Shown here in pieces: positions 4,686 through 24,360 of a DNA stretch of 41,045 nucleotides. How positions within the stretch are numbered: the first letter of the stretch is position 1; each line of letters opens with the position of its first letter. Made by a program: the position numbers and the translations under genes. Below the pieces are notes generated by a model. The model saw only the letters and a program-made list of their open reading frames with translations, had not been told where the DNA came from and searched no databases. The stretch is from Bacillus sp. AFS059628 (GTDB lineage Bacteria > Bacillota > Bacilli > Bacillales > Bacillaceae_G), in NCBI RefSeq assembly GCF_002571225.1, contig NZ_NVEC01000025.1, forward strand, positions 22,644-63,688. Direction: 5' to 3'.

Positions 4686-4771
4686 CTTACTATTATATAG
4701 GTTACCAACAAGGTCCGTACTATTCATAAAATATCTATTAAGATGAGAAAATGGAAAAGGAGCGGAGAAAC

Positions 4772-5098
4772 ATGAATTATATAGAAAATAACGGATTGTA
4801 TTATCGTAATCATCATCATGGAGGGCACAATTATAACGGTGGGCATCACCACCATGGAGGACACAATCACCATGATCATCACCACCATCACGGAGGTGGA
4901 TGGGGCTGGGGTGGTGGTTCATGGGGCGGTGGATTTTTCCCTGGAAGCTTTGCTGGAGGTGTTTTAGGGGGACTTACAGCTGGCGCGTTAACGGGTGCAG
5001 CAGGTGGAGGCTACTATCCAGCACCGTATCCAGTAACTTATCCAGCGCCATACCCAACGCCATATCCGGGTTATCAGCAAATAACATATCCATATTAA
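4772..5098 (+). CDS. small His/Gly-rich protein with Pro-Tyr repeat tail
   Basis: A 108-residue protein of unrecognised family. From the N-terminus: an Asn/Tyr-rich lead, about 30 residues of His/Gly/Asn repeats (HHHGGHN-type units, up to five His in a row), a Gly/Trp stretch, a small hydrophobic Gly/Ala segment (about 55-78), and a C-terminal tail of YPAPYP-like repeats. There is no signal peptide. The composition suggests a metal-binding, self-associating structural protein, comparable with spore coat or exosporium proteins of this group; that is inference. The frame is open from 4751, but AAAGGAGCGG at 4757-4766 places the start at the ATG at 4772. It is a single-gene unit with its own strong terminator. 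Confidence 0.75.
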   Translation: MNYIENNGLYYRNHHHGGHNYNGGHHHHGGHNHHDHHHHHGGGWGWGGGSWGGGFFPGSFAGGVLGGLTAGALTGAAGGGYYPAPYPVTYPAPYPTPYPGYQQITYPY

Positions 5099-7314: not shown

Positions 7315-8706
7315 TTATTTTTTTGAGTTTTTCATTAGTACTGGATAAAGAATAAGGCCTAATACGAACAATCCGATTCCTAAGAAGAACGTTTTTAAAT
7401 CAGCAGTGCCTGTTTTGATAACCCAAATAGAATATATAAATGCTAACGTAGTAATGATGCCGTCCTTTATTCGAGAGCCAGGCATTATATCATATGTTTC
7501 TCCTGTAATAACCAGTTTGAATTGGTACAGCGTAGAAACAAGGTATGGAATTAAATAAGCTAATGTTGCTACAACGATAGCGAAATTATAAGCTTCTGAC
7601 ACGGTACCAGAAATCGTTGAGAACAAGAAAATCTGCGTCATTACATTTGTAATCAATAATGATTTTGAAGGACTACCTTTTTTATTCGTTTTCGCGAAAA
7701 GCTTGGGGAAAAGTCCGTTCTTTGCAGCCTGGTAAGGTGCTTCTGAACTAACAACAATCCAGCCCACTGTAGATCCAAATAAAGATACAAGTGCAAGTAG
7801 AGCCATGATATAGGCACCTTTATTGCCAATGGCTAAATTTAATGCATCTACTAATGGTTTTTGAGACTCTTTTAAAGCATCTTGCGGGAGAGCGCCCATT
7901 GTAAGTAGAGTAATTGACATGTAAATAAGAAGAGCGATAATTAATCCGAAAATGGTAGCTTTTTTTACATCGCGCTGAGATTTTGCACGATTAGAAAGCA
8001 TGACAGCCGATTCAATACCGATAAATGCCCAAAGTGTTGCAATAGCAGCTGAATTGATTTGTCCACCTAAAGAAATGGATTGTCCTGCTTCATTCATAAA
8101 TGTTTGACCGTCTCCGAAATTAGAGGCATTGAAAATAAATAATGTGATTACAATAAACATTGTAAATCCGATAATCTTTGCAATGGTAGCAAGAAGATTC
8201 ATATTTCCAGCTCGGTCAATATTTTGAGAAAGAATATATTGAATTCCCCATAACATAAGGCTACATACGAGGAAAGTTAATCCTTTTCCGAGTTCTAGTG
8301 AAAATCCGTTCGTTGAAAAGAGAATTTGCTTACTTTGTAAAACTGGAAAGAATGTTGATAAATATCCAGCGAAGGAAATAATAACAGATGCTGTTGCAGC
8401 CCAGTTCGCAGCCCAATATCCCCATGCCATACTATATCCTGCAACTTTACCCGCTTTTTTTGAAGGGAACATTGCTTGAGCGTAACTTTGTGGTCCTGCT
8501 TTTAATTCTGGTTTTCGAATTGCTAAATTTCCAAACACGAGTGCAATCATAAATACGCCAAGACCTGTAATACTCCATGCAAGTGTAGAACCCATTGGAC
8601 CTGATACTTGTGCTAAATTTGCTGGGAGCATAAATACGCCACCACCAACCATATTTCCGATAACAAAAGCTGTTAAAATCCATAATCCCCATTTTTTCGT
8701 TTCCAT
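7315..8706 (-). CDS. APC-superfamily amino acid antiporter/permease (predicted histidine-linked)
   Basis: A 463-residue integral membrane protein with about 12 hydrophobic segments. The first carries the APC signature GNMVGGGVFMLP, and WAFIGIES appears in the sixth-segment region. Together with the WGYWAANW segment, this is the pattern of the basic amino acid/polyamine antiporter (ArcD-like) branch. It would move an amino acid across the cytoplasmic membrane, by exchange or proton coupling. The upstream leader encodes a peptide with four consecutive His codons, so I infer a histidine-type substrate; the protein alone does not prove this. AAAGGAG lies nine bases before the ATG. The gene stands alone, with terminators on both sides and a leader of about 265 bases. 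Confidence 0.82.
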   Translation of the reverse strand: METKKWGLWILTAFVIGNMVGGGVFMLPANLAQVSGPMGSTLAWSITGLGVFMIALVFGNLAIRKPELKAGPQSYAQAMFPSKKAGKVAGYSMAWGYWAANWAATASVIISFAGYLSTFFPVLQSKQILFSTNGFSLELGKGLTFLVCSLMLWGIQYILSQNIDRAGNMNLLATIAKIIGFTMFIVITLFIFNASNFGDGQTFMNEAGQSISLGGQINSAAIATLWAFIGIESAVMLSNRAKSQRDVKKATIFGLIIALLIYMSITLLTMGALPQDALKESQKPLVDALNLAIGNKGAYIMALLALVSLFGSTVGWIVVSSEAPYQAAKNGLFPKLFAKTNKKGSPSKSLLITNVMTQIFLFSTISGTVSEAYNFAIVVATLAYLIPYLVSTLYQFKLVITGETYDIMPGSRIKDGIITTLAFIYSIWVIKTGTADLKTFFLGIGLFVLGLILYPVLMKNSKK

Positions 8707-8769: not shown

Positions 8770-8810
8770 AAAAAAAGAGCCATGTAGATAAAAAATACCT
8801 ACATGGCTCT
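8770..8810 (-). terminator. leader terminator (attenuator) upstream of the permease
   Basis: On the minus strand AGAGCCATGTAG (8810-8799) pairs perfectly with CTACATGGCTCT (8787-8776), followed by a run of T at 8776-8771. It lies before the permease coding region, so read-through must be controlled. The 5' arm contains GTAGGTA, which can instead pair with TACCTAC of the preceding hairpin. Confidence 0.85.
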
Positions 8811-8818
8811 TCGCCAAA

Positions 8819-8882
8819 GCGTAGGTACAACGGGAATAACCCTTGTACCTACGCGTAATTTTTCCGCTAGGTTTCAAGGGTT
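8819..8882 (-). promoter_or_regulatory. alternative anti/pro-terminator hairpins in the permease leader
   Basis: Minus-strand segments. Segment 1 (8882-8865, beginning AACCCTTG) overlaps the leader peptide stop codon. Segment 2 (8855-8838, ending CAAGGGTT) can pair with segment 1. Segment 3 (8834-8819) pairs with segment 2 through a perfect 12-bp stem plus a GGG/CCC extension. Segment 3 also contains TACCTAC, complementary to GTAGGTA in the terminator 5' arm (8802-8796). The 1:2, 2:3 and 3:4 folds are mutually exclusive, the layout of a translational attenuator. Confidence 0.7.
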
Positions 8883-8940
8883 ACGTATGATGATGATGTT
8901 TTTGTGCAAATGTAACTACAATTGTTGTATAAGTAAGCAT
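8881..8940 (-). CDS. histidine-codon leader peptide (19 aa)
   Basis: A short ORF encoding MLTYTTIVVTFAQKHHHHT, with four consecutive CAT codons just before the last codon. GGGAG nine bases upstream is a good ribosome binding site, and a promoter lies about 40 bases further up. The stop codon overlaps RNA segment 1 of the downstream alternative hairpins. Position and composition match attenuator leader peptides such as those of enterobacterial his operons. Its role would be to let the ribosome sense charged histidyl-tRNA and set the fold of the leader RNA. There is no T-box sequence in the leader. I am confident of the ORF and structures; the regulatory role is inference. Confidence 0.7.
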   Translation of the reverse strand: MLTYTTIVVTFAQKHHHHT

Positions 8941-8976
8941 AGTTCTTTGCTCCCTTTCTCCTCTGATTTTGAAGTT

Positions 8977-9005
8977 AGTATACTACATGTTTTTTTGAAT
9001 GAAAA
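8977..9005 (-). promoter_or_regulatory. promoter of leader peptide-permease transcript
   Basis: Minus-strand TTTTCA (9005-9000) and TATACT (8982-8977) with 17-base spacing. Transcription would start near 8970, giving about 30 bases before the leader peptide ATG. Confidence 0.5.
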
Positions 9006-9156: not shown

Positions 9157-9867
9157 ATGATGAGCAAGTATGAACAAATTTATACAGAAATCAGTAAGTC
9201 TATTGATAATAAACAATTAAAAGAGGGATGCAAAATCCCATCAGAAACTGAATTAATGAAGCAATATGAAGCGAGCCGAGGTACAGTAAGAAAAGCTGTA
9301 GATTTATTACAAGAGCGTGGATATGTTCAAAAAATACATGGAAAAGGTGTCTTTGTTTTAAAGCGAAAAAACATTGAATTCAACTTTGGTGGCATTGTAA
9401 GCTTCCAAGAAGAAAATGAACGTTTAGGACGCCATTGTATTACAGAAGTCGTGGAAATGGAGAAAGTAAAAGCGACAAAAGAGGTTGCAAAGCTATTAAA
9501 TGTGAAAGAGAAAACAGAAATAGATCATATTAAACGCGTACGGAATATTGATGGAGAAAAAGTAATTTTGGATATTAATCATTTTGTATCGGAATATATT
9601 CCTGGATTAACGAGTGAAATTGCAGCGCAGTCCATTTATAAATACATTGAGAAAGAACTAGGTCTTCATATTAGTTATTCGCAGAGAGTAATTGAAGTAC
9701 AGCCATGTACAGAGGACGATAGAAAGTATTTAGATTTAAATGGAACAGACTATGTTGTTGTCGTGAAAAACTTTACGCATTTTTATGATGGAAGTCAGTT
9801 CGAATATACAGAATCCCGCCACCGCTTAGATATTTTTCATTTTTCAGATGTGGCGCGGAGAAAATAA
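9157..9867 (+). CDS. treR: trehalose operon repressor TreR (GntR/HutC family)
   Basis: A 236-residue GntR-family regulator. The N-terminal winged helix-turn-helix (about 1-70) contains PSETELMKQYEASRGTVRKA and the GYVQKIHGKG wing, followed by a UTRA effector-binding domain (about 85-230) ending in ESRHRLDIFHF. It closely follows B. subtilis TreR, which represses trehalose genes and is released by trehalose-6-phosphate. The gene is followed by a terminator, then by the treP-treA operon. In B. subtilis treR lies downstream of treA, so the order differs here. Two adjacent ATG codons start the frame; AAGGGG nine bases before the first supports it. The tandem palindromes at 9919-9960 are its likely operators. 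Confidence 0.92.
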   Translation: MMSKYEQIYTEISKSIDNKQLKEGCKIPSETELMKQYEASRGTVRKAVDLLQERGYVQKIHGKGVFVLKRKNIEFNFGGIVSFQEENERLGRHCITEVVEMEKVKATKEVAKLLNVKEKTEIDHIKRVRNIDGEKVILDINHFVSEYIPGLTSEIAAQSIYKYIEKELGLHISYSQRVIEVQPCTEDDRKYLDLNGTDYVVVVKNFTHFYDGSQFEYTESRHRLDIFHFSDVARRK

Positions 9868-9868
9868 G

Positions 9869-9904
9869 GAGATGGAACGTAATAACGTTTCATCTCTTTT
9901 TTTT
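9869..9904 (+). terminator. intrinsic terminator after treR
   Basis: A stem of GAGATGGAACGT with ACGTTTCATCTC around AATA, followed by eight T. It separates treR from treP. Confidence 0.85.
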
Positions 9905-9918
9905 ATAAAAAAATGACA

Positions 9919-9965
9919 AACTCGTATATACGAGTGTTGACTAACTTATATATACGAGTTAATAT
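9919..9965 (+). promoter_or_regulatory. treP: treP promoter with tandem TreR-type operators
   Basis: Operator 1 is the perfect palindrome ACTCGTATATACGAGT at 9920-9935. Operator 2 is an imperfect copy, AACTTATATATACGAGTT, at 9943-9960. The -35 TTGACT (9937-9942) lies between them and a TAATAT -10 (9960-9965) overlaps the end of operator 2, so repressor binding would block polymerase directly. Confidence 0.75.
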
Positions 9966-9969
9966 GTAA

Positions 9970-9984
9970 TTGTAAACGGTATCA
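9970..9984 (+). promoter_or_regulatory. catabolite responsive element (cre) of treP
   Basis: TTGTAAACGGTATCA fits the Bacillus cre pattern WTGNAANCGNWNNCW at every fixed position. It lies just downstream of the -10, where CcpA/HPr-Ser-P would repress in glucose. Confidence 0.7.
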
Positions 9985-10008
9985 AAAAAAGAAAAGAGGG
10001 ACGGGAAT

Positions 10009-11436
10009 ATGGGGAAAGACTATCGTAAAACAGCAGAGGAAGTGTTGCAGTATATTGGTGGGAAAGACAATATTGAACAAGCTGCACACTGTGTAACGAG
10101 ACTCCGTATCGCTTTAAAAGATGAAAGTAAAATAGATAACGATAAATTACAATCTGTTTCATTAGTGAAGGGAGCGTTCCATAACGCTGGGGTATTTCAA
10201 ATTGTAATCGGTCCAGGAGATGTTGATCGAGTATATGCTGAATTGATAACGCTTGCAGGTATGAAGGAAGCGACAGTAGCTGACGTAAAAGATTCTGGAA
10301 ATCAAAAGTTAAATCCAGCTCAAAAGTTTGTAAAAGTATTTTCAGATGTATTTATGCCGATATTACCAGCAATCGTAACAGCTGGTTTACTAATGGGAAT
10401 TAACAACCTATTAGGGGCGAAGGACTTATTTTTTGAAGGTAAAAATTTATTAGATGTGTATCCAAACTTAAGTGGGCTTTGGGATTTAATTAATATGATG
10501 GCGAATACAGCTTTCGTATTCTTACCAGCACTTGTCGGTTGGTCAGCAACAAAACGTTTTGGTGGTAGTCCGATATTAGGGATTGTTATGGGATTAATGC
10601 TTGTGCATCCAGCCTTATTAAACGCGTGGGATTACGGAAAAGCAGCGACTGGTTTAGACGGACAAAAGATTGAGTACTTCGATATTTTAGGATTATTTCA
10701 AATTGAGAAGGTAGGGTATCAGGGTCAAATCTTGCCGGTTTTAGTAGCTGCATTTGTATTAAGTAAAGTGGAAATTTTCTTGAAGAAACATGTACCAAAT
10801 GCAATTCAACTATTAGTTGTACCAATTACAACGATTGTCGTAACAGGTGTATTAGCACTAGGGATTATTGGTCCAGTTACACGTCATATTGGAGATTTAT
10901 TAACAGTTGGATTAGTAGGTGTATATGAAACAGTACCAGTAGTTGGTGCAGTATTGTTTGGAGCATTATATGCACCGCTCGTAATTACAGGTATGCATCA
11001 TATGTTTATTGCTATCGACTTACAATTAATTGCACAGCACGGTGGTACATTCATTTGGCCAATGATTGCCCTTTCTAACATTGCGCAAGGTAGTGCGGCA
11101 CTTGCGATGTTCTGGATTTCTAAAAATCAAAATGATAAAAGCATGGCATCTACATCAGCAATCTCAGCATATTTCGGTATTACAGAACCAGCTATGTTTG
11201 GTGTAAACTTACGAAATAAATTCCCGTTCTATGCAGCGATTATAGGATCGGCTATTGCAGCTATATTTATTACGTTAAATGGTGTATTAGCACCTGCTAT
11301 CGGAATTGGCGGATTACCAGCATTTATTTCTATCATTCCGAAATCGATTCCGATGTTTATTGTCGGAATGGTTATCGCAGTTGTAATCCCATTTACGTTA
11401 ACGTGGTTATTTGCAAAACGAGTAAAACAGAAGTAG
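10009..11436 (+). CDS. treP: PTS trehalose-specific EIIBC component
   Basis: A 475-residue membrane permease that imports trehalose and phosphorylates it to trehalose-6-phosphate. The EIIB domain spans about 1-85, with the phosphorylated cysteine C28 in AAHCVTRLR. The EIIC domain (about 105-470) has about ten membrane segments and the GITEPAMFGVNLR motif. There is no EIIA domain, so phosphate must come from a separate EIIA-Glc type protein, as in B. subtilis TreP. GAGGGACGGG precedes the ATG. It is followed after 13 bases by the phosphotrehalase gene, forming an operon induced by trehalose through TreR and repressed by CcpA. Confidence 0.95.
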   Translation: MGKDYRKTAEEVLQYIGGKDNIEQAAHCVTRLRIALKDESKIDNDKLQSVSLVKGAFHNAGVFQIVIGPGDVDRVYAELITLAGMKEATVADVKDSGNQKLNPAQKFVKVFSDVFMPILPAIVTAGLLMGINNLLGAKDLFFEGKNLLDVYPNLSGLWDLINMMANTAFVFLPALVGWSATKRFGGSPILGIVMGLMLVHPALLNAWDYGKAATGLDGQKIEYFDILGLFQIEKVGYQGQILPVLVAAFVLSKVEIFLKKHVPNAIQLLVVPITTIVVTGVLALGIIGPVTRHIGDLLTVGLVGVYETVPVVGAVLFGALYAPLVITGMHHMFIAIDLQLIAQHGGTFIWPMIALSNIAQGSAALAMFWISKNQNDKSMASTSAISAYFGITEPAMFGVNLRNKFPFYAAIIGSAIAAIFITLNGVLAPAIGIGGLPAFISIIPKSIPMFIVGMVIAVVIPFTLTWLFAKRVKQK

Positions 11437-11449
11437 GAGGAAGTTGAAC

Positions 11450-13111
11450 ATGAAGGATTGGCATAAAAGTGTAGTTTATCAAATTTATCCGAAGAGCTTT
11501 AATAGCTATTACAATAAAGAAACCGGTGATATAAAAGGGGTTACAGAGAAACTAGATTATTTAAAAGAACTCGGAGTAGATTATATTTGGTTAACACCGA
11601 TATACCAATCACCACAAAATGATAATGGATACGATGTAAGTGATTACTACAGCATTGATCCATCTTACGGTACGATGGAAGAGTTTGAAGAGCTTTTAGA
11701 AGAAGCAAAGGCACGTAACATTGAAATTATGCTGGATATCGTTGTAAATCATAGTTCGACGGAGCATAAGTGGTTTAAGGAAGCGAAGGAAGATAAAAAT
11801 AGTCCATATCGTAATTATTACATTTGGCGTGATGAAAAAAATAATTGGCAATCTAAGTTTGGCGGGTCTGCTTGGAAATATGATGAGAAGACAGAGCAAT
11901 ATTTTTTACATCTATTTGATGAGACGCAAGCTGATTTAAATTGGGAAAATGAAAAACTTCGTGAAGAAGTGTATGAAATGATGGGCTTTTGGCTTGATAA
12001 AGGGGTAACTGGATTCCGATTAGATGTTATTAATTTAATTTCAAAAGATCAACAGTTTTTAAATGATGACGGAAGTACGGCAACAAGCGATGGACGTAAA
12101 TATTATACAGATGGTCCGCGTGTTCATGAATATTTACAAGAGATGAACCGAAATGTTTTTGAAGGGAAAGATGTAATTACAGTTGGAGAAATGTCATCTA
12201 CAACAATTGATAATTGTATTAAATATTCAAACCCTGAGCGCAATGAATTAAGTATGACGTTTAGTTTTCATCATTTAAAAGTAGATTATCCGAATGGAGA
12301 TAAGTGGACGGAAGCGCATTTTGATTTCATTAAATTAAAAGAGATTATGTCTAATTGGCAAATTGAAATGCAAAAGGGCGGGGGATGGAATGCATTGTTC
12401 TGGTGTAATCATGACCAGCCTCGTATTGTATCACGCTTTGGCGATGATCGAAAGTACCGAAATGAATCTGCAAAAATGTTAGCGACAGCTATGCATATGT
12501 TGCAAGGTACACCTTACATTTATCAAGGCGAAGAAATCGGTATGACGAATCCTAAATTCGAATCCATCGAGCAATATCGCGATGTAGAATCGTTAAATAT
12601 ATATGATATAAAGCGAGAAGAAGGATTATCAAAAGAAGAGATTATCGGGATTTTAAAACAAAAATCTCGTGACAACTCCCGTACGCCGATGCAGTGGAAT
12701 GAAGAAATGAACAGTGGTTTTACAACAAGTACACCTTGGATTTCAGTGGCTGAAAACTTTAAAGAAATAAATGTGGAGAAGGCACTAGAAGATAAAGAGT
12801 CTGTATTTTACCATTATAAAAAGTTAATAGAACTTAGAAAAACGTATGATGTAATTACAGAAGGAGAATATGCTATTTTAGATGAAAATCATCCTAAAAT
12901 TTGGGCATATACTCGTACTACAGAGAGTGAAGTGTTGCTTGTTATTAATAACTTCTACGGAGAAGAAATAACGTATTCAGTACCAGCCCATGTTCAATTA
13001 GATGGAATGAAACAAGAAGTACTACTGTCGAATTATAAAGATTCCAGCAAGGACATTACAAAACTTAACTTAAGACCATATGAATCAATTGTCTATCGAT
13101 ATATGAAATAA
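11450..13111 (+). CDS. treA: trehalose-6-phosphate hydrolase (phospho-alpha-1,1-glucosidase)
   Basis: A 553-residue cytosolic GH13 glycosidase that splits trehalose-6-phosphate into glucose and glucose-6-phosphate; the gene is called treC in some genomes. The catalytic triad is visible: nucleophile D192 in GFRLDVI, acid/base E247 in VGEMS and D322 in NHDQPR. Start is WHKSVVYQIYPKSF-like, typical of oligo-1,6-glucosidase/TreA proteins. The frame can begin at a TTG at 11444, but AGGAGG at 11435-11440 is nine bases from the ATG at 11450 and only three from the TTG, so the ATG is preferred. That ribosome binding site overlaps the treP stop, which suggests coupled expression. Confidence 0.95.
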   Translation: MKDWHKSVVYQIYPKSFNSYYNKETGDIKGVTEKLDYLKELGVDYIWLTPIYQSPQNDNGYDVSDYYSIDPSYGTMEEFEELLEEAKARNIEIMLDIVVNHSSTEHKWFKEAKEDKNSPYRNYYIWRDEKNNWQSKFGGSAWKYDEKTEQYFLHLFDETQADLNWENEKLREEVYEMMGFWLDKGVTGFRLDVINLISKDQQFLNDDGSTATSDGRKYYTDGPRVHEYLQEMNRNVFEGKDVITVGEMSSTTIDNCIKYSNPERNELSMTFSFHHLKVDYPNGDKWTEAHFDFIKLKEIMSNWQIEMQKGGGWNALFWCNHDQPRIVSRFGDDRKYRNESAKMLATAMHMLQGTPYIYQGEEIGMTNPKFESIEQYRDVESLNIYDIKREEGLSKEEIIGILKQKSRDNSRTPMQWNEEMNSGFTTSTPWISVAENFKEINVEKALEDKESVFYHYKKLIELRKTYDVITEGEYAILDENHPKIWAYTRTTESEVLLVINNFYGEEITYSVPAHVQLDGMKQEVLLSNYKDSSKDITKLNLRPYESIVYRYMK

Positions 13112-19942: not shown

Positions 19943-20118
19943 GGGGGCTTCTATAGAAAGGTTAAAGTGAATGATTAGCTCTATGGGGATGGTAGTAGTG
20001 TTGGAAATTCTTAATGTTACAAAATAAAAGTTTAAGATTAATAGAATTTTCAATACTAAATGGGAATTTAAGAATCAATTTGTTTAGAAAAATAATTTTA
20101 GTAATGGGGAGATGCAAT

Positions 20119-23100
20119 ATGAAACGAGGGGAATTTGGGAAAATTCTTATTGGAACGCTAACAGTTGGAATGTTATTGTCTCAAGGAATTCCATATAACG
20201 TATTGGCGGAAGAGGTAAATACATCTAATTTAACTGGGATTGATGATGCAAATGCTGTATTGAAAGGTCTTACAAAGGAACAACGTAATGCTTTGAAAAC
20301 GTTAGATACAAAACCGGGTTTTGTTATTTCACCAGGAATCAATATAGCAAGCCCTAATAATGTGAATGTAATTATAGAATTTAAGCAAGCACCTAGCAAA
20401 ATTGAGGTATTAAAACAAGCGGCTAAAGGAAAAAAGTTAGCTCTTTCAAATGCTGAGCAAAAGGTAGAGGCATCACATAAAGGGTTTAAAGCAGAGCTTG
20501 AAAAGCTTCAAAAAAATAAAGATAAAGGTACAAATTTAAAATCTGTAAAAATAACAAAAGAATATAAGAATGCTTTTAATGGAGTAGCAATGTCGTTACC
20601 AGCCAATATGATTGAAGACTTAGTTCGTACCGGTATTGTTAAGCGTGTATGGGAAGATCGTGAGGTCAAAATTGATTTGCCAAAAGAAACAGCTAAGGCA
20701 GGTATCGAGCCAAAAATGGCAGATAGTGTACCACAAATTGGTGTGGACAAGCTACACGATGAAAAAATAACAGGTAAAGGAATTAAGGTGGGGGTATTGG
20801 ATACAGGCATTGATTATAACCACCCTGATTTAAAAGATGCATATAAAGGATATCGTGCAAAGCAAGGTGAGGATCCAAGCAAAATAGATCCGAACTCCAT
20901 AAAAGGATGGGACTTTGTTAATAATGATGCTGATCCAATGGAAACAACGTATAAGGATTGGCAAAATTCTGGAGGATATCCTGAGATTTATGAGGGAAGT
21001 GCATATTATACATCCCATGGTACTCATGTAGCTGGGACAATTTCTGCAGACAAAAAGAATAATGTAGATTATGCAGTGAAGGGCGTTGCCCCAGATGTAG
21101 ATTTATATTCATACCGCGTATTAGGTCCATATGGAAGTGGACAAACAAGTGGTATTCTTGCTGCAATTGATAAAGCAGTGAAAGACGATATGGATGTTAT
21201 CAATTTATCACTAGGAGCGTCTATTAATGATCCTTTATATCCTACTTCTGTCGCAGTGAATAATGCGATGTTAGCTGGTGTTGTTACAGTAGTAGCAGCT
21301 GGTAATAGTGGTCCGGAAGAAGGTACCATTGGATCACCTAGTGCAGCAGCACTTCCCATTACAGTGGGAGCCAGTGACGCTGCAATGACTATTCCAACGT
21401 TTTCCGCCGATGCAGGTGATGTACATGTAGATAAGATGATGCTACTTGGAAAAAGCTTTACTGATAAGATTGAAGATTTGAAAGGACAATCCTTATCGGT
21501 TATATATGCAGGGCTTGGGAAATTAGGTGATTTTACAGGGAAAGATGTAAAAGGGAAGTTAGTTCTTATCCAACGAGGTGAGATTACATTTGATGAAAAA
21601 ATTAAAAATGCTAAGGATGCAGGCGCAAAGGCAGTAATTGTATATAACAATGTAGATGGGGAAATTACAAGTTATGTTGGGGAAAGTACTTCATCTATTC
21701 CATCGTTCCGCTTAACAAAAGCAGATGGTGAGAAATTACAAGCAAAAGCTGTACAAGGAGATGTATCGTTAGCGTTTGGAGAACTTAGTAATATAAAAAC
21801 AGAGGGAGATCACTTAGCTGATTTCAGTTCCCGTGGTCCCGCAGCGAAAACAGATGATATTAAGCCAGATATTGTAGCACCAGGTGTGTCTATCTTCTCA
21901 ACTGTTCCTGAATATATTAATGATCCAAAGGATGGAGAAAATTATCCGGTAGCGTATGGACGTATGTCAGGTACATCTATGGCAACTCCTCATACTGCAG
22001 GGGTTGCGGCACTGATTTTACAGGAACATCCAAACTATAGTCCATTTGAAGTAAAAGAGGCACTTATGAATACCGCAGTTGATTTAAAAGAAGAGCGTTC
22101 TGTATTTGAGGTGGGATCAGGAAGAATTGATGCATATCGTGCAGTTCATGCAGATACATCTATTGAGGTTATCGATAAAACATCAAACGTTATAGATGAT
22201 GAAGAAGTAGAAATTGAAGAAAAAACAGGTTCTATTGCATTTGGGTATAAAAATCAAATTGAAACTGGGCCTATTAAAGATAGCCGAAAAGTGTTAATTA
22301 AGAACAGCAGTAAAACAGATGGGAAAGAATTTAAATTAGAAGTAGAGTTTTCACCTACAAGTGTAGGTGTGCAAGATGCAGCGAAGAATGGTGTGAAGCT
22401 AAACGTACCAGATTCTATTAAAGTAGCTCCTGGTACATCAGGGGAACTTAGTCCTGAAATTATCATTCCGGAAAACGCTGAATTTGGTAGATATGAGGGT
22501 TATATTCATATTTCAAATAAAAAAAATGAAAAGGAAGTATATCAAGTACCATTTGCGGTTAAATTCACAGAAAAAGGGATTGCGTCTGTGGATTTACTGA
22601 GAGATGCAATGGCAACAGATGCATCTAAATTCCATCCATTTATGGAAAGACCTAGTTCGCCTTTGACATTTAAATTAAATAGTCCTCTTGAAACTATTGA
22701 TGCAGTTGTGAAGGACCGAAAGACAGGGAAGGCATTAGGAGTCGTTGGTACACTTAATGCAAGTAGTCTAACACCAAATGTTGAGTATATGATGTTTTCT
22801 GGTATGGCAGGGTATGTACTTCCATTTACAGGAGATCCAGCTCATCCAATTGGGGATAAACCTGTTATGTTGCCTGATGGAGATTACGAATTGAACTTCG
22901 TTGGATATGATAAAGAAGGGAAATCGTATACAAAAGGCGATAGCATAATCATTGATAATGTAATACCTGAAATGAAATTTAAGGATGTACAACCTGGTAT
23001 ACACGAAGTCAATGATTCCATGTTTAAAGAAGAAGACGGCCAACGTGCATTATGGGTGCATGGTAATATTTATGATTCTACAGTAGATGCATTAAAGGCA

Positions 23101-24360
23101 AAAGGCTTGCAGTATGATCAAAAAGCGAATCAAATTGTATATTATCAAAACTCAGCCTTCCCATCAGGTTGGTTGAATACAATTCAAGCAAATGGTGATT
23201 TTAAATTTGGAGTACTTCCAGAGGAAATAAATGAGCCGTTAAATTTAAAATTATTTGGATATGACCTTGCCACTGCGGGGAATATGGCAACTGGATATAA
23301 AGATTATGTCTTTGTAAAAGAAGGGACAGAATACGCTGTTCCAAGTTATGACAAAGATAAAATAAAATTAGGTGAAAAAATTACGTTAACTTTGAATCTC
23401 AATAATGTAAAACAGCTTATGTCAGGTACATTTGAAATTCCTTATTACAAGCAGCTCTTTAAATTTACAGATGTGAAACCAAATCCAGCACTTACGGAAT
23501 ATGTAAAACAACATGGACTGAATCTTAAATTAGAAGATCCGAAGGTAAGTGAAGAAGGAGCTTGGGAAAATAAGGTGAAAATTGGCGCGTCATTGGAAGG
23601 AAAAGAATTTAAAGGATTAGATGGAGATACACCATTTTTAGATGTTACATTCGAGATGACGAGCGATGAATACTTTAATGATTTAACTGCATTTGGAGTA
23701 GATAAGTTCTCTTATACAAAAGTTGGTGCAACAGAAGGCAATGAGATTCCTGTGTTTAAAGATAAATCTTTTGCTATTGTTTCGAAACATTCAACGGTTA
23801 CAGGATATATTGGTCCGGAAGCTTTCTTGAATGAAGAGGGGTATTTAGGTAAGAAAGACTATACAAAACTAGGAGCAAAAGTGTACGCAGTTGGCAAGGA
23901 TGGAAAGAAATATACAGGAACGATTAATGAAAATGGGCAATTTGAGATTCATAGTGTTCCAGTAAGCGATAAAGAATATGATATTTTCGTAGAAATGCCA
24001 GGTCATTTAAATAGTAAATTAACAACAAAAATAGGGAAGATGCAAGACGGTGAATTAGTGGGACAAAACTTTAGAGCTAACATGGATGATAACCTTGCAG
24101 GTGATGTAAACGGCGATAAAATGGTAGATATTCAAGATGCTAGAATAGCAGCTTTATCGTATGGAAAAGGAAAAGTATCTGTAAAAGATGGAGATATAAA
24201 TCAAGATGGTGTTGTAGATGAAACAGATATTCGTTTTATCGAGAAAAACTTCTTGAAAAAGGGGCCAGAGGCTAAAGAAAATCAGAAACCGAAAGAAAAT
24301 GTAGGGCCAGTGACGTTAGATAAAATCTTACGCTCTATTGGTTTAGAACCAAAAAAGTAA
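20119..24360 (+). CDS. large secreted S8 subtilase (Vpr-like) with cohesin-like and dockerin-like modules
   Basis: A 1413-residue secreted serine protease. A signal peptide (about 1-30, ending near VLAEE) is followed by an I9-type inhibitory propeptide (about 70-185). The S8 catalytic domain has D228 in LDTGID, H300 in SHGTHVAG and S620 in GTSMATPH; a PA domain is inserted between His and Ser (about 440-560). Fn3/beta-sandwich regions follow, then a region near 1095-1235 resembling a cohesin fold and a carboxypeptidase-regulatory-like segment. Last comes a dockerin-like pair of calcium loops: GDVNGDKMVDIQDA from about 1328 and GDINQDGVVDETD. No LPXTG or SLH anchor is present. The frame extends upstream to 20014, but GGGGAG before the ATG at 20119 and the signal peptide fix the start. 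It is related to Vpr of B. subtilis but much longer. Confidence 0.88.
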   Translation: MKRGEFGKILIGTLTVGMLLSQGIPYNVLAEEVNTSNLTGIDDANAVLKGLTKEQRNALKTLDTKPGFVISPGINIASPNNVNVIIEFKQAPSKIEVLKQAAKGKKLALSNAEQKVEASHKGFKAELEKLQKNKDKGTNLKSVKITKEYKNAFNGVAMSLPANMIEDLVRTGIVKRVWEDREVKIDLPKETAKAGIEPKMADSVPQIGVDKLHDEKITGKGIKVGVLDTGIDYNHPDLKDAYKGYRAKQGEDPSKIDPNSIKGWDFVNNDADPMETTYKDWQNSGGYPEIYEGSAYYTSHGTHVAGTISADKKNNVDYAVKGVAPDVDLYSYRVLGPYGSGQTSGILAAIDKAVKDDMDVINLSLGASINDPLYPTSVAVNNAMLAGVVTVVAAGNSGPEEGTIGSPSAAALPITVGASDAAMTIPTFSADAGDVHVDKMMLLGKSFTDKIEDLKGQSLSVIYAGLGKLGDFTGKDVKGKLVLIQRGEITFDEKIKNAKDAGAKAVIVYNNVDGEITSYVGESTSSIPSFRLTKADGEKLQAKAVQGDVSLAFGELSNIKTEGDHLADFSSRGPAAKTDDIKPDIVAPGVSIFSTVPEYINDPKDGENYPVAYGRMSGTSMATPHTAGVAALILQEHPNYSPFEVKEALMNTAVDLKEERSVFEVGSGRIDAYRAVHADTSIEVIDKTSNVIDDEEVEIEEKTGSIAFGYKNQIETGPIKDSRKVLIKNSSKTDGKEFKLEVEFSPTSVGVQDAAKNGVKLNVPDSIKVAPGTSGELSPEIIIPENAEFGRYEGYIHISNKKNEKEVYQVPFAVKFTEKGIASVDLLRDAMATDASKFHPFMERPSSPLTFKLNSPLETIDAVVKDRKTGKALGVVGTLNASSLTPNVEYMMFSGMAGYVLPFTGDPAHPIGDKPVMLPDGDYELNFVGYDKEGKSYTKGDSIIIDNVIPEMKFKDVQPGIHEVNDSMFKEEDGQRALWVHGNIYDSTVDALKAKGLQYDQKANQIVYYQNSAFPSGWLNTIQANGDFKFGVLPEEINEPLNLKLFGYDLATAGNMATGYKDYVFVKEGTEYAVPSYDKDKIKLGEKITLTLNLNNVKQLMSGTFEIPYYKQLFKFTDVKPNPALTEYVKQHGLNLKLEDPKVSEEGAWENKVKIGASLEGKEFKGLDGDTPFLDVTFEMTSDEYFNDLTAFGVDKFSYTKVGATEGNEIPVFKDKSFAIVSKHSTVTGYIGPEAFLNEEGYLGKKDYTKLGAKVYAVGKDGKKYTGTINENGQFEIHSVPVSDKEYDIFVEMPGHLNSKLTTKIGKMQDGELVGQNFRANMDDNLAGDVNGDKMVDIQDARIAALSYGKGKVSVKDGDINQDGVVDETDIRFIEKNFLKKGPEAKENQKPKENVGPVTLDKILRSIGLEPKK

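Follow-up and report, generated by a model that had tools for sequence, protein, structure and literature searches.

How is an amino acid permease gene of Bacillus sp. AFS059628 controlled, and what does its leader reveal about the substrate? The gene (7315..8706, minus strand) encodes an APC-superfamily amino acid permease of 463 aa, a predicted transporter of histidine or a related compound, and lies in the window, i.e., the whole stretch of 41,045 nucleotides analyzed here. Judging from sequence and modeled folding, its leader very probably acts as a ribosome-mediated, histidine-responsive transcription attenuator controlling the permease. The leader elements are all on the minus strand. 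A weak promoter-like site (TTTTCA-17-TATACT, 8977..9005) places the probable transcription start near 8970, about 265 nt from the permease ATG (8706), which agrees with the leader length given in an earlier note on this DNA. The promoter proposed in that note corresponds to this site, but the site scores 9/12 matches and the 1.5 kb scanned contains 9 such sites against 5.7 (sd 2.5) expected, which is not beyond chance alone. A Shine-Dalgarno-like sequence assigned by eye (AAAGGGAG, 8950..8957) precedes a leader peptide ORF of 19 codons plus TAA (MLTYTTIVVTFAQKHHHHT, 8881..8940), with four CAT (His) codons in a row at 8887..8898; a terminal His run also occurs in relatives of the leader. Segment 1 (8865..8883) starts at the stop codon of this ORF and can pair with segment 2 (8838..8856). 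Segment 2 pairs with segment 1 in the predicted ON state or with segment 3 (8819..8836) in the OFF state, and segment 3 can instead pair with segment 4 (8796..8811) as an antiterminator. Segment 4 is also the 5′ arm of the terminator, whose 3′ arm, segment 5 (8775..8790), is followed by a U-tract. The 2:3 stem has 12 consecutive pairs and further pairs past a bulged G, and the intrinsic terminator 4:5 (8812-8774) has 17 pairs, a loop of 5 and then a T-run. The 19-codon ORF with its four CAT codons, the perfect 12-bp stem, the alternative helices 1:2, 2:3 and 3:4 and the terminator, all reported in the earlier note, are present in the window as described.

Such an ORF rarely arises by chance. 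The criterion applied was an ATG ORF of 8-40 codons with at least 3 consecutive His codons and a Shine-Dalgarno-like sequence. It selects 0/5000 dinucleotide shuffles of the 400 nt upstream in the window, and the leader is the sole qualifying His ORF in the 41 kb on both strands. Among 50 permease relatives taken from genome contigs, 4 carry a qualifying leader upstream (L005, L012, L022, and L048), compared with 1/5000 shuffles and 1/1350 background segments; when the Shine-Dalgarno requirement is dropped, the counts are 4/50, 8/5000, and 6/1350, respectively. By the same criterion the leader is absent before the other 46/50, so the attenuator is not a general trait of the permease family. 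No genome named as a member of the B. cereus group is among the 50 relatives. The run of codons for a single amino acid in a short leader ORF that marks amino-acid attenuators is thus found here, and translation of the ORF is predicted. Alternatively, a constitutive terminator and a chance ORF might share a hairpin-rich 5′ UTR devoid of regulation, and the near-chance numbers of promoter-like and terminator-like sites in the region would suit this. Against this stand the shuffles, the recurrence of His leaders before histidine genes and the covariation of mutually exclusive helices (both described below), which make an unregulated leader scarcely credible.

The attenuator reading makes definite predictions about folding. 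RNA was folded beyond the downstream edge of a ribosome, set from toeprint geometry, with the polymerase just past segment 4 and the ribosomal A site occupied by either the initial His codon or the stop codon. In the window, 1:2 forms together with 3:4 when the ribosome is absent or stalled, and 2:3 forms when it is at the stop codon. Among nine leaders, the ribosome stalled at His gives 1:2 and 3:4 in 8/9 (exception L059), the ribosome at the stop codon gives mainly 2:3 in 7/9 (L058 and L099 are mixed), and RNA free of ribosomes gives 1:2 and 3:4 in 7/9 (exceptions L059 and L100); L059 folds to 2:3 in every state. Folding thereby supports the switch proposed in the earlier note, with a stall at the first His codon leading to 1:2 and 3:4 and a ribosome at the stop codon leading to 2:3. 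When charged tRNA-His is scarce, the leading ribosome would stall on the CAT codons, which immediately precede segment 1. Free segment 1 would pair with segment 2, and the released segment 3 would pair with the loop-proximal half of segment 4, preventing nucleation of the terminator and allowing transcription of the permease. When histidine is ample, a ribosome at the stop codon would cover segment 1, leading to 2:3 and then 4:5, and transcription would end near 8770. Promoter use, leader translation, stalling, termination, the response to histidine and histidine uptake by the permease are all predicted steps of this scheme. Because segment 1 starts at the stop codon, the untranslated leader is predicted to be ON.

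As soon as segment 5 has been transcribed, 9/9 leaders fold into the terminator whether the ribosome is stalled or at the stop codon, so the decision of the switch must be kinetic. In B. subtilis, RNA polymerase reportedly moves ahead of the ribosome (runaway transcription, cited in PMC9226507), and leader attenuators of this species use NusG-dependent pausing at TTNTTT (PMC9226507, PMC6851288). Straight after the 1:2 hairpin of the window, TTATTC (8834..8839) has one mismatch to this motif and might serve as a pause site. In the 15 of the 17 leaders of alignment A3 that were compared, the sequence directly after segment 2 has 4 of the 5 fixed T positions in 12/15 and 3 in 3/15, and none of the 15 matches 5/5; since the loops are T-rich, the resemblance is only suggestive. 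A wider proposal, which we consider possible but rather doubtful, is that one default-ON RNA switch family has spread among HisRS, HisD, two transporter families and an orphan gene, and that 1:2 doubles as a polymerase pause hairpin with an adjoining TTNTTT-like NusG motif, at which the paused polymerase awaits the ribosome. If true, this would explain ribosome-mediated amino acid attenuation where RNA polymerase outruns the ribosome. In any case, the leader makes it testable how a ribosome steers termination despite a faster polymerase.

Relatives of the leader RNA extend well beyond the permease. The RNAs before permease orthologs in Bacillus sp. 165 (L022, 74% identical permease, peptide MFNTTMFVQLHHHT) and Ectobacillus panaciterrae DSM 19096 (L048, 78%, MFNVTLFAQLHHHT) are near-identical to that of the window, and identical Shine-Dalgarno-like letters (AAAGGGAG, by eye) precede their leader peptides. 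Compared to the window, the N-terminus of the peptide is altered, and the His run and hairpins are kept. Among 19 genomes from the family to which the L048 genome belongs, a DNA search matched 5, adding L053 (MLRLLIVAQLHHHT), L054 (MLRLLIIAQLHHHT), and L055 (MLFIQKSWVHHHRN). A search of 397 genomes of the order matched 7, adding L058 (MIHFVLIINKSYNHHNR) and L059 (MINQLTFPQLHHT); a further candidate from this search, L060, was rejected as a chance match. Covariance model R1 (see below) added L099, L100, and L101. The next gene encodes HisRS (PRK12420, NCBIfam) in L055 (610.2 vs. a cut-off of 540) and in L059 (648.1 vs. 540), in the latter case after an unassigned 141-aa ORF and several hundred bases, and HisD in L058 (323.6 vs. 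243.8, NCBIfam). HisRS PRK12420 is above its cut-off in all 4 cases scanned with HMMs (L063, L065, L140, and L156), as is HisD in L064. Behind L053 and L054 comes a small orphan gene encoding about 150-190 aa (L061:4926-5417, L062:3979-4470, and a relative at L048:4596-5174), with no Pfam or NCBIfam match in the copy scanned (L062). In L048, whose permease also bears the leader, this relative (37% identity, E 1e-24) follows the permease gene, which suggests one regulon. L100 and L101 precede a PF03553/PF13726 transporter of the Na+/H+-antiporter family (scanned in L113; L114 is 94.3% identical), which we take to be similar to B. subtilis YuiF. YuiF has been named as a histidine permease (PMC9413887).

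More distant relatives, a diverged group scoring about 38-44 bits with R1, precede hisZ-hisG-hisD operons (by eye, 7 loci) with peptides such as MFFARTNNGLQHHHPPRV. In the one his-operon locus scanned with HMMs, hisZ is the best match yet below cut-off (191.1 vs. 271.65). The genomes of this group include G011, which holds L046 (Gottfriedia endophytica). The genes downstream of the relatives thus appear to serve histidine (HisRS, HisD, the his operon), and the window permease may do so as well. At L099 the next large gene encodes an alpha/beta hydrolase. This hydrolase gene (L112:2406-3491) lies behind a His leader, and two genomes with similar neighbors have the PF03553 transporter at this place; it looks as if the target had been replaced behind a kept leader. 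Genome G016 carries two different leaders of the his-operon class on contigs C9 and C83 (L097 and L102), MFFARTNNGLQHHHPPRV and MLLARLNKGLHDHHPLRG, pointing to a second his operon or to a mixed assembly.

Covariation of the four helices was assessed on three alignments. On A2 (11 sequences), RNAalifold itself picked 1:2 together with 4:5, with 97.2% of cells paired and 10/23 pairs changed on both sides, a level reached by 1/500 shuffles; sliding the structure lowers the pairing to 29-50% of cells. With A1 (8 sequences), RNAalifold picked 2:3 with 4:5, with 96.7% of cells paired and 7/27 pairs changed on both sides (reached by 0/500 shuffles). The antiterminator 3:4 pairs in 92.9% of the A1 cells with 2/7 pairs changed on both sides, which 54/500 shuffles reach; its support is weaker because the helix is short. 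On A3 (17 sequences), 2:3, 3:4, and 4:5 beat all 500 shuffles in cells paired and in covariation score, and their both-sided changes are reached by 14, 307, and 20 of 500 shuffles, respectively. Helix 1:2 is unsupported on A3, where 58.8% of cells pair, 121/500 shuffles are as high and a version slid by +1 pairs 65.7%. Segment 1 appears to be displaced by a column or so in A3; an alignment-free swap test disagrees with A3, yet the failure on A3 stands. This test compares duplex energies of native segment pairs with those of segments exchanged between genomes; the segments were chosen by eye, which biases the native energies, and the swap comparison less so. With 11 diverged leaders, 0/20000 permutations reach the native mean for any of the four helices. 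With the 7 most diverged leaders, 11 (1:2), 4 (2:3), 17 (3:4), and 5 (4:5) of 20000 do so, where the identity itself accounts for 1 of 5040 permutations. The first run gave 0/5000 for all four helices with 11 leaders, and 11, 11, 60, and 16 of 5000 with 6 representatives (identity 1 of 720). Most telling is the series GTAGG/CCTAC, GCAGG/CCTGC, GTGGG/CCCAC, in which segments 2, 3, and 4 change together. Covariation of the stems, named as a check in the earlier note, therefore holds for 2:3 and 4:5 and, more weakly, for 3:4; for 1:2 it is found on A2 and in the swap test and fails on A3. Despite this disagreement, the leaders show helices that exclude one another and lead to an intrinsic terminator, as amino-acid leader attenuators do.

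Two covariance models, R1 built on 8 leaders and R2 on 11, were used for wider searches, and both include the His-codon columns. In the window, R1 gives one strong match (135.6 bits), a sequence that belongs to its own training set. Across the order, 70/397 genomes have some R1 match at E ≤ 0.01, mostly below 39.9 bits. Among 45 R1 loci examined, an ORF with a terminal HH run is found in 23/24 at 39.9 bits or more and in 1/21 below, so that the lower matches are treated as chance; since R1 holds the His-codon columns and 7/45 of the loci are training sequences, this is a consistency check rather than an independent test. R2 matched 1/15 and 1/2 genomes in the families of G221 and G057, each time the training genome alone, 3/193 genomes in a third family (L123, L124, and L125) and 1/5 named genomes. 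Across the class it matched 23/398 genomes with 24 matches, of which 2 are training sequences, 3 are weak (40.5-43.5 bits) and have no locus, and 19 were examined. All 19 have a His-run leader ORF, with the model containing the His-codon columns. HisRS lies downstream in 18/19, two of them scanned with HMMs (641.0 and 664.9 vs. 540); behind the other 17 leaders of L140-L157, HisRS is 74.8-84.1% identical to that of L156. The remaining locus precedes a hisZ-like gene (151.8, below cut-off). His codons are therefore conserved alongside the hairpins (terminal run in 23/24 R1 and 19/19 R2 loci) while the peptide N-terminus varies, a test weakened by the His-codon columns of both models. The L123, L124, and L125 loci (around 1450-1640), excluded from these counts, show HisRS-like genes behind His-run leaders (e.g., MLSVKIIISLSQLHHHIK) that differ in hairpins and terminator (by eye), and are possibly a further leader class. 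The leader DNA has no match on plasmids, and its exact core is absent from the viral contigs searched. The permease has 428 plasmid records, every one below 60% identity.

At gathering score, no Rfam family matches the window leader or nine relatives, including the proteobacterial His_leader (RF00514). Below threshold, the leader matches RF04312 trpB best (35.3 bits vs. a cut-off of 59), and the absence of a T-box, noted before by eye, is confirmed by the lack of any T-box among covariance matches at E up to 10. In 19 of the 50 permease loci, Rfam gives 5 matches (L008, L014, and L016), and no T-box is among them. These scans also speak against a metabolite- or protein-binding switch, in which the RNA would bind histidine, tRNA or a protein and the leader ORF would be incidental. 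The high primary-sequence conservation of segments 2-3 among the window, L022, and L048 could be taken as a sign of such a binding site. However, the segments vary elsewhere while their pairing holds, and terminal His codons recur in diverged RNAs, so that we judge a binding switch very unlikely.

The His codons could instead control translation or RNA stability, through access to the ribosome binding site or protection of the RNA, with the hairpin and U-tract being incidental. The leaders of L005 (2850-3000, MITIKCEFHSIKHHHRYHHHSC) and L012 (2850-3000, MIITIKNNYNSIMAHHHQNHHHSC), unrelated His-rich ORFs before orthologous permeases, bear on this: by eye, no terminator is evident between leader and permease, which means that a terminator need not accompany a His leader. 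In the family of the window, in contrast, the terminator 4:5 covaries, a 3′ T-run follows it in every row of A2 and A3, and segment 3 still pairs with the loop-proximal half of segment 4. Control of translation or stability is thus improbable for the window leader, although translational attenuation may perhaps operate in L005 and L012, which would then be convergent evidence for a histidine substrate. The points that weigh against transcription attenuation itself are the failure of 1:2 on A3, the both-sided changes of 3:4 that shuffles of A1 and A3 also reach, the folds of L059, L058, and L099, the formation of the terminator in both ribosome states once segment 5 is present, the choice of the segments by eye, the 46/50 permease relatives that lack the leader and the position of L099 before a hydrolase gene.

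The substrate of the permease is not fixed by its own sequence, as its profile matches and solved relatives indicate. The protein matches Pfam AA_permease_2 and stays below the cut-offs of the NCBIfam basic amino acid/polyamine antiporter subfamily (348.5 vs. 409.05 bits), the arginine-ornithine antiporter (307 vs. 591) and the histidine-histamine antiporter (207.1 vs. 725); the AdiC arginine/agmatine antiporters are its only solved relatives by sequence. No his or hut genes were recognized by eye near the permease in the nine loci listed. The leader points to histidine or a relative as the likely substrate and ties the permease to a His regulon.

Attenuation by His leaders has already been predicted in Bacillus, and the permease leader appears to belong there, in a family wider than found described. 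For bacilli, Naville and Gautheret (2010, PMC2965389) described His leader peptides upstream of hisS* and hisZ. Like the window leader, these combine a short His-run ORF with a premature terminator in Bacillus, with HisRS paralog and hisZ genes as targets; the parts of that paper dealing with them describe only hisS-family targets, without a permease or a base-pair model. Ashniev et al. (2022, PMC9413887) report candidate attenuators before his operons in six species of the B. cereus group, and also in Eubacteriales and Erysipelotrichales. These leaders likewise have three to five consecutive His codons and attenuator, terminator and antiterminator hairpins, but unlike here the attenuator rows considered in Table 3 name only his operons and no transporter. 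A His-run ORF directly followed by attenuator, antiterminator and terminator hairpins, as expected for the Firmicutes His attenuators of these two studies, is found in the window. The earlier contrast with a Bacillus that normally uses T-boxes was too strong, given these predictions (PMC2965389, PMC9413887). Attenuators are stated to occur where HisR is missing, and RF00514 to have no match in Firmicutes (PMC9413887). The statement on HisR mostly fits: a TrpR-family match exceeds the cut-off in 1/19 genomes of the family (B. subtilis as positive control), but this sole positive genome, G011, carries an attenuator as well. In literature lying mostly outside subscription papers and supplements, no description of a His leader of this kind upstream of an APC permease was found. 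The permease target, one RNA family common to unrelated histidine genes and unmatched by Rfam, and the default-ON logic thus appear to be new. The data suggest that the His-codon attenuators of Bacilli include an RNA family not matched by Rfam 15.

In the his and trp leaders of E. coli, termination is the default. The window leader shares with the enterobacterial his and trp attenuators the codons of the regulated amino acid, the selection of hairpins by ribosome position and the intrinsic terminator, but differs in that segment 1 starts at the stop codon and untranslated RNA is predicted to be ON. The enterobacterial logic invoked in the earlier note applies to the ribosome-position switch and not to this default. 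In the ilv-leu leader of S. aureus, a selected mutation of a leader Leu codon to a stop codon is expected to relieve repression (PMC5794164). This is also an amino-acid leader of Firmicutes, and the stop mutation fits the predicted ON logic, although the amino acids and the RNA are different (PMC5794164). In B. subtilis, stalling on a leader ORF controls read-through at bmrCD, tlrB (yxjB) and vmlR (PMC4191407, PMC6851288, PMC9226507), and NusG pausing at tlrB synchronizes RNA polymerase with the ribosome (PMC6851288, PMC9226507). These leaders sense drugs, whereas the window leader is predicted to sense an amino acid.

Some neighbors of the permease deserve mention. Divergent from it, positions 9157-13111 (plus strand) look like a trehalose operon: a trehalose-type repressor above the TIGR02404 cut-off (345.9 vs. 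211.95) is followed by PTS transporter-like and glycosidase-like ORFs (by eye). At 4751-5098 (plus strand), about 3.8 kb from the His leader, a 115-aa protein with 16 His and 28 Gly has no Pfam match at 1e-10. Farther away, positions 20014-24360 (plus strand) encode a subtilase-family protein of 1448 aa, with Peptidase_S8 and a PA domain.
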